Shown here: positions 16,057 through 34,405 of the stretch, piece by piece | How positions within the stretch are numbered: position 1 is the first letter of the stretch | Layout of the letters: every line of letters begins with the position of its first letter | Source: Defluviitaleaceae bacterium | Lineage (GTDB): Bacteria > Bacillota > Clostridia > Lachnospirales > WRAX01 | Direction of reading: 5' to 3' | Assembly (NCBI GenBank): GCA_009785555.1 | Contig: WQWB01000007.1 | Coordinates: 1 to 43,098, forward strand | Length of the DNA stretch: 43,098 bases | Notes under the pieces: generated by a model | What the model was told of the DNA's origin: nothing | Databases searched by the model: none | The model's input: only the letters and a program-made list of their open reading frames with translations | Translations under genes and position numbers: made by a program

Positions 16057-17262
16057 ATGAGGTGCTTTATGAAAAAATATTTTGCTGCCGGGATTTTTAT
16101 TGTTTTACTTTTAACGGTAATTACCCATGTTATGGCTGAAACGGAAAAACATACCGAGAAACCGACGGTTGAGGCGCGCGGTGCGATTTTGGTTGATTTA
16201 GAGTCCGGACGTATCTTGTGGGGAAAGAATCAAGACGATGAATTAGCCATGGCAAGTACCACGAAAATAATGACAGCGATGCTTTGCCTGGAACTGGGCA
16301 ATTTAAACGATATTGTAACGGTAAGCCGCCGCGCCGCCGTAGCGCCTCGTGTCAAGATGTACTTGCAAGAGGGTGAAAAGATAAAGCTTGAGCTTCTTCT
16401 GTACGCTTTGATGCTTCAAAGTTCCAACGATGCAGCTGTTGCCATTGCCGAGCATATCAGCGGTACGGTGGAAGAGTTTTGCGCGTTGATGACAGCGAAG
16501 GCGAAGGAGCTTGGAGCTGAAAATACGGTTTTTGAGACACCGAACGGCTTGGACGCGGGTGACCATCACTCCACCGCGTCGGACCTGGCGATAATAACGC
16601 GCTACGCTATGAAGAACGATAAATTCGTTAAGATAATAAACACGCACGAATACAGCGGCCAAAGTTCCCGCCGCGATTATCACATATACAATAAAAACCG
16701 CCTATTGTCGGAGTATCGCGGTGCGAACGGAGTAAAGACGGGATTTACGGGTAAAGCCGGATATTGCTTTGTAGGGTCGGCAGAGCGGGACGATTTGTCC
16801 CTAATATCCGTTGTCCTCGCCAGCGGCTGGGGTGGGCGAGGCCGTGAGCAGCGCTGGAATGATACGAAGGAAATCCTTAACTACGGCTTCAACAATTACA
16901 AAAACGAGACCATAGTTGTGGAAGGCGATACGGCAGGGAACTTGATAGTGGAACGCTCCAAGACGACGAATATAACGCTTGTATTTTCGGAAAAATTGCG
17001 CCTGCCGATTACTGAGGAGGAAAAGGGTAACCTGCGTATGGAACGAGACCTTCCGAGTCAGCTTCGCGCGCCGATAACCGCCGGCAACGTCGTCGGCACA
17101 TGCACCATATACGCGGGTGAAGAAAAGTTGGCGGAAATTGACGTGATAACTACCGCGAATGCGGAGAGGCACGATTTGAAAACATCGATGGAGAAGGTGC
17201 TTGCGTCGCTTTTAGAGATATTCACGTCCGGTAAAGTTGACGTAGTGTTGCCGGAATTTTAA
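16057..17262 (+). CDS. D-alanyl-D-alanine carboxypeptidase (DacF-type, peptidase S11)
   Basis: Signal peptide; MASTTKIMT (SxxK), SSND (SxN), GVKTGFTGKAGYCF (KTG). Confidence 0.93.
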   Translation: MRCFMKKYFAAGIFIVLLLTVITHVMAETEKHTEKPTVEARGAILVDLESGRILWGKNQDDELAMASTTKIMTAMLCLELGNLNDIVTVSRRAAVAPRVKMYLQEGEKIKLELLLYALMLQSSNDAAVAIAEHISGTVEEFCALMTAKAKELGAENTVFETPNGLDAGDHHSTASDLAIITRYAMKNDKFVKIINTHEYSGQSSRRDYHIYNKNRLLSEYRGANGVKTGFTGKAGYCFVGSAERDDLSLISVVLASGWGGRGREQRWNDTKEILNYGFNNYKNETIVVEGDTAGNLIVERSKTTNITLVFSEKLRLPITEEEKGNLRMERDLPSQLRAPITAGNVVGTCTIYAGEEKLAEIDVITTANAERHDLKTSMEKVLASLLEIFTSGKVDVVLPEF

Positions 17263-17593: not shown

Positions 17594-17605
17594 GAGTAGA
17601 ATTAA

Positions 17606-17629
17606 TATTGACAAATATTTGAAAGTACG
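17606..17629 (+). repeat. 24-bp direct repeat, left copy (glgC promoter duplicate)
   Basis: TATTGACAAATATTTGAAAGTACG identical to 19009-19032. Confidence 0.95.
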
Positions 17630-17630
17630 C

Positions 17631-17673
17631 GGTGAGTAAGGGCGCAGACATGGTATTCTTACAAAAAGCAAAT
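17631..17673 (+). pseudogene. Decayed glgC 5' fragment
   Basis: Gapless match (about 29/43 nt) to glgC 19110-19152; same frame gives GE*GRRHGILTKSK vs [14 protein letters not shown]. Confidence 0.55.
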
Positions 17674-17711
17674 AAAAAAGCCGCAATAACATAATGCAGT
17701 TTTTGCGGCTT
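17672..17711 (-). terminator. Intrinsic terminator of secreted-protein gene pair
   Basis: Minus strand AAGCCGCAA...TTGCGGCTT followed by TTTTTATT. Confidence 0.8.
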
Positions 17712-17720
17712 AGAGATTAA

Positions 17721-18296
17721 TTAACGGTTAAAAGGAAGAAAAAAACCACAAACACATTGTAGGCCTAGGGGATGCGGTTGGAAAATATGGGGATACAATC
17801 TCGTGCGTGTTTCCGAAGCTATAAGAAAACCACAATCCAAACAAATACGATGAAATACACTAATTGATACCAAGCAGTACTCTAATAAATTATGGATATC
17901 AGTTGTACCCATGTAAAATACGTTATTATTGCCATGAAAACACATCGGCAAAGAATTGTGATCTAGACCCGGGCGGTTTTTTATTAACAGTTCGATTAAA
18001 GGACTATTTTTTGATATTAACAACTCATCCCGAATAGATGCGGTGCGAAATGCTTCAAATTCTAAATCAAGTAATATTCCTATGAGCACAGGATCTCCAG
18101 AAAAAATCCGATTTGACCATGAAATTGTTCCGCTTACAGCATCAGCAAATATTGTAAACTCGATTACATTTTCATTGCTAGCTATATTTCTGTCAACACC
18201 TAATGCGTGCATACTTGGATTTGCGAATATGATTGAAATTAAAGTTACAAGTAAAATAAGTAATTTAATTGTGGTAATAATCTTTAATTTAGCCAT
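17721..18296 (-). CDS. Secreted Cys-rich protein (paralog 2)
   Basis: Hydrophobic signal segment; AGGAGG RBS inside the end of the upstream gene; CFH-x19-C-x10-CxxC and CVCG. Confidence 0.7.
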   Translation of the reverse strand: MAKLKIITTIKLLILLVTLISIIFANPSMHALGVDRNIASNENVIEFTIFADAVSGTISWSNRIFSGDPVLIGILLDLEFEAFRTASIRDELLISKNSPLIELLIKNRPGLDHNSLPMCFHGNNNVFYMGTTDIHNLLEYCLVSISVFHRICLDCGFLIASETRTRLYPHIFQPHPLGLQCVCGFFLPFNR

Positions 18297-18741
18297 GATA
18301 TGTGCCTCCTGTAATATTTTTGCGGCTTTCCTTACCCGTGTCTATAATACGATAAAATCCGGGTTTCCGATGACCACATCTTATACAAGCCGGAAAAGGT
18401 CCAAAACCAAATTCGTGATAAATAGTAAATACATCAGTCATTGACCAAAGTAATAAATCACAAGTAAGGCATCGAGTTTCGGAAACATATACACGTCTCT
18501 GGCAAAACTGATCTGTTGGGCCTGATATAGATGGCGGGAGATTTGTTGTTCTCCAACGGTCATGAAAGCAAAATGAAAACGTACCAGAAGTGTCATATTC
18601 GGTGTAAAATACAACGTGACTCCATTCGGATTGGTGTTCTAAAACCAAGCCTTCATGTGCTGTTGCAGAATGAACTAAGCCAAACAACATGATTATAGAA
18701 ACAATCAATGCTGAAAGGAAACGAATTTGTTTGTTTTTCAT
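18289..18741 (-). CDS. Secreted Cys-rich protein (paralog 1)
   Basis: Signal peptide MKNKQIRFLSALIVSIIMLFGLVHSATA; CFH-x19-C-x10-CxxC-...-CIRCG. Confidence 0.7.
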   Translation of the reverse strand: MKNKQIRFLSALIVSIIMLFGLVHSATAHEGLVLEHQSEWSHVVFYTEYDTSGTFSFCFHDRWRTTNLPPSISGPTDQFCQRRVYVSETRCLTCDLLLWSMTDVFTIYHEFGFGPFPACIRCGHRKPGFYRIIDTGKESRKNITGGTYHG

Positions 18742-18853
18742 AATTAAACCTCACTTTCAATTTGTAATGTTGATGATTGCATTACACACAATTGTTAGTT
18801 ATCAACTTTTCATACGCACCCTTCCTTCCTGTGTATGAGTATTATTTGATTGT

Positions 18854-18882
18854 ATGATAACATGACAATCGATATATGTCAA
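18854..18882 (-). promoter_or_regulatory. Sigma-A promoter for secreted Cys-rich pair
   Basis: Minus strand TTGACA-N17-TATCAT. Confidence 0.75.
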
Positions 18883-19008
18883 CATTTGTTAATGAATATT
18901 TTTTTAGAAGAATTTTTTTATGTACAAATTATATAATATTAAACATCTTACCGCAACTTTTGAGTTGAGTTCAAGATATGGAATCTTTATACACATTAAT
19001 TGGATTTT

Positions 19009-19032
19009 TATTGACAAATATTTGAAAGTACG
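19009..19032 (+). repeat. 24-bp direct repeat, right copy
   Basis: Identical to 17606-17629; contains the -35 of the glgC promoter. Confidence 0.95.
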
Positions 19033-19039
19033 ATAAAAT
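19011..19039 (+). promoter_or_regulatory. Sigma-A promoter for glgCD
   Basis: TTGACA-N17-TAAAAT upstream of glgC. Confidence 0.8.
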
Positions 19040-19073
19040 TATACCAACGATATTTGTAAAGGTAGGTGGGATT

Positions 19074-20363
19074 ATGCGCGGCAAAGAGATTATTGCCATG
19101 CTTCTTGCCGGTGGGCAAGGCAGCCGGCTTGGCATTCTTACAAAGACAAAGGCGAAACCCGCTGTCAGCTACGGCGGCAAGTTTAGGATGATCGACTTCC
19201 CCCTTTCAAACTGCATAAATTCCGGTATTGACACGGTCGGAGTGCTTACGCAGTATCAGCCGCTTCTCCTTAACAAGCATATAGGCAACGGCGTGCCGTG
19301 GGATCTGGACAGGACAAGCGGAGGCACTGCCATCCTCCAGCCCCATCAAAAAAATGACAATACCGGGGATTGGTACAGCGGCTCGGCAAACGCCGTATGC
19401 CAAAACATCAATTTTATAGATGAGTATAACCCCGAGTACGTACTTGTTTTAGGCGGGGACCATATCTATAAGATGGATTATTCCCTTATGCTTGATGCCC
19501 ACAAACAAAACAATGCGGATGCTACTATCGCTGTTATCGAGGTACCGTGGGATGAGGCATCACGCTATGGCATAATGAATGCTGATGAATCGGGCCGTGT
19601 TACGGCTTTTGTGGAGAAGCCGAAAGAGCCGGTCAGCAACCTGGCCTCGATGGGCATTTATATCTTCACTTGGAAATACCTGCGTGAAGCGCTTATTGAA
19701 TCTGACAAACTACATACGGATTCGGATTTTGGCAAGCATATCATTCCGCTTCTCCTTGAAGGCGGCAAAACGATGTTTGCGTATAAATTTACGGATTATT
19801 GGCGTGACGTAGGCACTATAGACAGCTATTTTGAATCTAACATGGAGCTTATTGCCACCGTGCCGCTTTTTAATTTGTATGAGGAACACAAGCGTATTTA
19901 TACGAACAGCCCGCACCAGCCGCCGCAATACACGGGTGAGAATGCGGACGTGCGCGGCTCGCTTCTTTCGGAAGGGTGCGAGATTTACGGAACGGTAATT
20001 AATTCCGTGTTAGGCTATGGCGTTAAAGTGCATAACGGAGCGCGGGTTGTAAACTCCATTGTCATGGAAAACTGTAACATCGGCCGCGACACGGTTATTG
20101 AAGATTGCATTTTGGATGAAAACAGCCTTATAGGCGACAATGTAACCATAGGTGTGTCTGTTGGCGATGATGCGCAGGCCGTAAATGAGCTGCGCCCGGA
20201 TATCTACAATACCGGCATTACAGTTATCGGAGAATATTCCAAAATCCCCGACAATGTCCGTATCGGTAAAAACTGTGTGGTTGAGGGAGTTTCGGTTTAC
20301 AGTGATTATGACTGTGGGCTTCTTGCAAACGGCAGATCCGTTATAAAACCAGTATTGATGTAG
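19074..20363 (+). CDS. glgC: Glucose-1-phosphate adenylyltransferase
   Basis: [58 protein letters not shown]. Confidence 0.97.
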
Positions 20364-34297: not shown

Positions 34298-34405
34298 GTG
34301 CCTGACGAATATAGTTCGCCCTTGGTGCCTGACGAATATAGTTCGCCCTTGATGCCTGACGAATATAGTTCGCCCTTGATGCCTGGCGAACACAGTTCGC
34401 CCCTA
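34298..34405. repeat. 27-bp tandem repeat, 4 copies, each with an internal inverted repeat
   Basis: GTGCCTGACGAATATAGTTCGCCCTTG x2, ATGCC... x1, then divergent ATGCCTGGCGAACACAGTTCGCCCCTA. Confidence 0.95.

Follow-up and report, generated by a model that had tools for sequence, protein, structure and literature searches.

The locus lies in a window of 43,098 nucleotides (the whole stretch of DNA that was analysed) from a genome of the Clostridia and consists of two short genes, both on the minus strand. Gene 1 (18289..18741), the upstream gene, encodes a protein of 150 amino acids (P1) and gene 2 (17721..18296) encodes a protein of 191 amino acids (P2). Both products have a signal-peptide-like N-terminus and a C-terminal Cys/His domain. 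An earlier sequence-only reading of this DNA gave the correct coordinates for both open reading frames, leaving out their strand, and correctly described an 8 nt overlap between the genes (18289-18296) with the downstream ribosome-binding site inside the upstream gene. By sequence inspection, this site is a Shine-Dalgarno sequence, AGGAGG (18305..18310, minus strand), and gene 1 is preceded by an RBS-like GTGAGG (18749..18754, minus strand). A promoter-like site (TTGACA-17-TATCAT, with a TG before the -10; 18854..18882, minus strand) was identified by consensus match only, and sites of this kind are frequent in AT-rich DNA. Downstream of gene 2 there is an intrinsic terminator (17677..17712, minus strand) with a predicted fold of -16.3 kcal/mol (z -4.65). 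Genes 1 and 2 form a predicted translationally coupled operon. A TGACA...TGTCA inverted repeat (18862-18881, minus strand) overlaps the -35 element of the operon promoter and is a possible operator. The neighbouring genes, both on the plus strand, are a D-Ala-D-Ala carboxypeptidase (dacF-like) gene (16057-17262) and glgC-glgD (from 19074 on). Elsewhere in the window, positions 34299-34402 hold a 27-bp tandem repeat with 3.9 copies (TGCCTGACGAATATAGTTCGCCCTTGA).

P1 and P2 are probably exported, since both N-termini are signal-peptide-like. This agrees with the earlier description of a secreted pair, as far as inspection and a crude hydropathy test can support it. No LPxTG or other anchor was seen in the sequences of P1 and P2.

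The operon is carried on an AT-rich insert of ~1.34 kb (17666..19003) that is present in a single copy in the genome. GC content is 34.2% in the insert compared with a mean of 46.2% in a sample of the genome, where equally low values were found in only 8 of 616 windows. GC3 is likewise low, at 0.28 and 0.26 in the two genes versus 0.51-0.56 in the neighbouring genes, and in both open reading frames it falls well under GC1, a pattern that coding sequence from an AT-rich source would show. An intact copy of a duplicated stretch, containing the glgC promoter and first codons (19004..19144, plus strand), borders the insert on one side, and on the other there is a second copy, decayed and shortened, which covers the glgC promoter and 5' end (17601..17665, plus strand). 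Positions 17601-17629 of the left copy correspond to 19004-19032 and positions 17630-17665 correspond to 19109-19144, with 76 bases missing. The arrangement fits a direct duplication, at least 141 bp long, that brackets the 1.34-kb insert. The insert is apparently foreign, because of its AT-rich composition and the decayed second glgC 5' end at its flank. No recombinase was found in the insert (17666-19003). The flanking duplicate resembles the scar of an integration that left glgC intact, and one reading of the duplication is that a circle bearing a diverged glgC 5' end was integrated.

The AT-rich composition and the single decayed flank, together with the lack of homologues described below, might indicate that the reading frames are non-functional remnants of decaying foreign DNA. 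We consider this most improbable, as there are two full open reading frames with ligands conserved in both, their GC3 follows the coding pattern noted above, and ribosome-binding sites, a promoter-like site and a strong terminator are all present. It is also very unlikely that the operon is a horizontally acquired antagonistic cassette, in which the two secreted peptides (bacteriocin-like, or a toxin with a partner) would act against competing bacteria. Such a cassette would be consistent with the foreign composition and flanking duplication, with two small exported products from one operon, and with the absence of relatives nearby, but there is no immunity gene, transporter or match to a defence or toxin family, both N-termini are signal-like, and the domain they share is similar to structural modules.

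The ligand domain of P1 (CFH...C...CxxC...HEF...CxxCG) spans residues 58-123 (18373..18570, minus strand), with C58, H60, C80, C91, C94, H109, C119 and C122 as ligands. That of P2 (CFH...C...CxxCG...HIF...CxCG) spans residues 119-184 (17745..17942, minus strand), with C119, H121, C141, C152, C155, H170, C181 and C183. The C-terminal ~66 residues of the two proteins can be aligned without gaps under the pattern CFH-x19-C-x10-CxxC-x14-HxF-...-CG, which pairs C58, H60, C80, C91, C94, H109 and C122 of P1 with C119, H121, C141, C152, C155, H170 and C183 of P2. The last cysteine pair differs between the proteins (CxxCG in P1 and CxCG in P2). The spacings given in the sequence-only reading (CFH, x19, C, x10, CxxC, x27, CG) are exact, as are its aligned histidine and phenylalanine at +15 and +17 past the second cysteine of the CxxC.

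We compared this agreement with that obtained from shuffled sequences. Five cysteines fell on one diagonal in none of 100,000 shuffles, seven cysteines and histidines did so in one of 100,000, and the P1-P2 Smith-Waterman score was equalled by 49 of 20,000. Because five aligned cysteines never arose by shuffling, P1 and P2 are almost certainly diverged tandem duplicates, and this earlier proposal is well supported. The BLASTP comparison of P1 and P2 gave an E-value of only 0.011, so their kinship rests mainly on the Cys/His spacing. Ungapped identities amount to 17 of 72 positions, and outside the ligands the two sequences are far diverged. Retention of the ligands while the rest drifted is the pattern that would be expected of duplicates selected for their ligands. 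AlphaFold (AF2) models, proposed earlier as a check on the fold, were built and were too poor to decide it (mean pLDDT: P1, 37; domain, 41); the domain model places two main strands around the CxxC, at low confidence.

No model in Pfam, NCBIfam, PHROGs or PADLOC matches P1 or P2 (no score past a curated cut-off and no significant E-value), and no homologue was detected in 15 relatives from the same family, 392 genomes of the order, IMG/VR, phages or plasmids. The full fixed-spacing pattern, run on the 392 order genomes and IMG/VR, did not reveal one either. In single-protein and two-row-profile searches of genomes from the family, order and class, the matches examined proved to be either unrelated proteins or antisense frames, and a match in the same genome (on C19) was rejected because it is antisense to gatB. 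Sampling stretches of other genomes for small secreted proteins of this kind turned up none with the full motif. The same genome encodes two further small exported Cys/His proteins of 125 amino acids each (L202:3171-3548 on C20 and L192:701-1078 on C10), one of them lipoprotein-like, with ligand patterns unlike that of the pair. The proposal of a candidate new family thus survives in part: with no named family or close homologue, the pair appears new at the level of sequence, but its domain plan probably has precedents, given that the identical spacing is abundant in surface repeats of Clostridia.

These repeats were reached with a motif profile (A3) that was weighted to the ligand columns using 14 synthetic random-filled sequences. 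The search was built on the spacing of the pair, so its matches are not an independent discovery, and since the profile is biased to this spacing by design, a reversed control was run. Among 391 class genomes, the ligand-weighted profile matched secreted Clostridia proteins down to E ~2e-6, with matches in 67 of the 391 genomes versus 15 of 291 for the reversed profile. The reversed profile gave no long-frame matches, and its best stop-free match (E = 0.011) was in a 68-aa frame. Most of the best matches are to a repeat that is abundant in long proteins secreted by Clostridia and includes units such as CTEDGYTGDTVCTVCGETITAGETIPATGH. The commonest spacings in the repeat proteins are C-x10-CxxC (33 of 64) and CxxC-x14-H (28 of 73), which are the same as those in P1 and P2, and the C-x10-CxxC-x14-H core is present in both members of the pair. 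The full motif with H-x-[FYW] occurred in none of 10,739 decoy open reading frames, and in 13 (P1) and 3 (P2) per 200,000 shuffles. Repeats with the signature CTExG...CxxCG...PATGH are found at several loci in other Clostridia genomes (L245-L251, L253, L254, L256, L257, L265 and L272). No convincing model for them was found in Pfam and NCBIfam, a literature search with the motif words of the repeat returned nothing useful, and no CTExG/PATGH-type repeat was detected in 16 genomes of the family to which the host belongs.

In a direct comparison with the repeats by hhalign, the pair aligned in register to 15 natural units with P = 0.0021, but with a probability of only 13%. When 6,607 open reading frames were ranked with an HMM of natural units, P2 was placed 6th (E 3.5) and P1 11th (E 8.1), neither of which is significant. 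The CTExG signature at the first cysteine and the PATGH signature at the histidine are both absent from the pair, which has CQRRVYVSETRC...FTIYH in P1 and CLVSISVFHRIC...RLYPH in P2. The P1/P2 domain probably belongs to this zinc-module class as a stand-alone variant that has diverged, a membership for which the sequence scores are not significant.

Two secreted proteins with Cu-amine-oxidase N-terminal domains (L258 and L261) carry CxH...CxxCG-x13-HxF...CxxCG. A profile of this domain ranked P2 first among the 6,607 open reading frames (E 0.098, 0 of 3,000 shuffles) and P1 782nd. A further search (A4), around G718, found no close relative and turned up a secreted protein with CxxCG...HxY...CxxCG units (L278). 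This protein, in a 239-aa frame on the minus strand, has several H-x-[FY]...CxxCG units and may, as an intermediate, link the pair with the repeats.

The natural repeat profile also matches the IgA protease of Thomasclavelia ramosa (IgAse, Q9AES2; 9qa6 sequence) with E = 0.007, and the CTExG...PATGH repeat appears to be of the same class as the ZBDs of this enzyme. Its ZBD1 and ZBD2 have His2Cys2/Cys3His zinc sites that are predicted from models, and no disulfides (PMC12237041). In ligand order and modal spacing the pair matches a class whose T. ramosa member is described as having predicted zinc sites and lacking disulfides (PMC12237041), and for this reason structural zinc is more likely than disulfides in P1 and P2. 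Of the two options left by the sequence-only reading, a zinc- or disulfide-stabilised domain, the first is therefore favoured.

A disulfide-stabilised domain would instead make the pair a separate orphan secreted family, with bonds of the C58-C80 type and a spacing shared with the zinc repeats by coincidence or convergence. Each protein has six cysteines, an even number, outside the cytoplasm, the repeat signatures are missing and neither sequence scores significantly against the repeat class. We nevertheless find this explanation unlikely, although it deserves serious weight: two conserved CxxC-type pairs together with conserved histidines in CxH and HxF are what metal sites typically show, the modal spacing is common to the pair and the repeat class with a clean reversed control, and the described relative lacks disulfides (PMC12237041). 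The host, from its kinship, is presumably an anaerobe. If zinc is bound, eight possible ligands within about 66 residues might also suit extracellular scavenging or storage, with the proteins supplying or withholding the metal. This role is highly improbable, given that no zinc transporter or Zur-type gene adjoins the operon, whose neighbours are dacF-like and glgC/glgD, and that the ligands are spaced as in structural sites.

The interpretation that we favour, with about an even chance of being correct, is that the locus is a coupled operon of two paralogous exported zinc-module proteins, representing a divergent stand-alone form of the Clostridia surface repeat/ZBD class. At the end of each protein there would be a small module, probably beta-rich, that a metal (most likely zinc) holds together by way of a CxH, a lone cysteine, a CxxC knuckle, a histidine 15 residues on and a terminal CxxCG or CxCG. 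The eight ligands per module would be enough for two zinc sites. By analogy with the class, the module would probably serve as a rigid, disulfide-free structural or binding element outside the cell. The two products would be made in similar amounts and possibly pair. The operon would have arrived in the AT-rich insert beside glgC, leaving one glgC 5' end intact and one copy decayed. A bolder version, which we think quite unlikely, is that the two genes are a mobile cassette encoding stand-alone zinc mini-proteins for secretion. The cassette would represent a new family, would insert at a housekeeping gene's 5' end while preserving one intact copy of that end, and its two chains would form an obligate extracellular pair.

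The pair suggests that Clostridia have a widespread extracellular zinc-binding module, one that had no Pfam or NCBIfam match here and for which a possible new metal-binding fold has only recently been put forward, in the case of one IgA protease. Proteins as small as these, with a single module each, would be a convenient test of the use of zinc instead of disulfides in secreted proteins of anaerobes, and would also be handy for finding what the module binds.

Among known systems, the surface repeat 'ATCTExGYTxxxxCxxCGxxxxxxxIPATGH' has the C-x10-CxxC-x14-H core of the pair, often with H-x-aromatic and then CxxCG or CxCG (e.g. L246, L248 and L249), whereas P1 and P2 lack its conserved T, G and PATGH residues. 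The repeats occur, often in tandem, within large proteins that also have BspA-type LRR, GH53, CAP or dockerin domains, while the pair has one module per 150 or 191 amino acids. The L258/L261 domain follows the ligand order of the pair (CxH, CxxCG, a histidine 15 residues after, HxF and CxxCG) and its proteins also have a signal-like N-terminus. However, it has a histidine 10 residues before the CxxC where the pair has a lone cysteine 11 before it, and it lies inside reading frames of 395-456 amino acids with PF07833. ZBD1 and ZBD2 of the IgA protease are extracellular, like the pair, and have a cysteine at x10 before the CxxC in the best-matching unit; they are three-stranded beta subdomains without disulfides, with zinc sites predicted from histidine and cysteine. 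In the protease these units follow one another in tandem within a large enzyme, which has ATCT-type signatures and a predicted sortase motif, whereas P1 and P2 each have one module in a small protein with no anchor seen, an extra CxH and a terminal CxCG or CxxCG.
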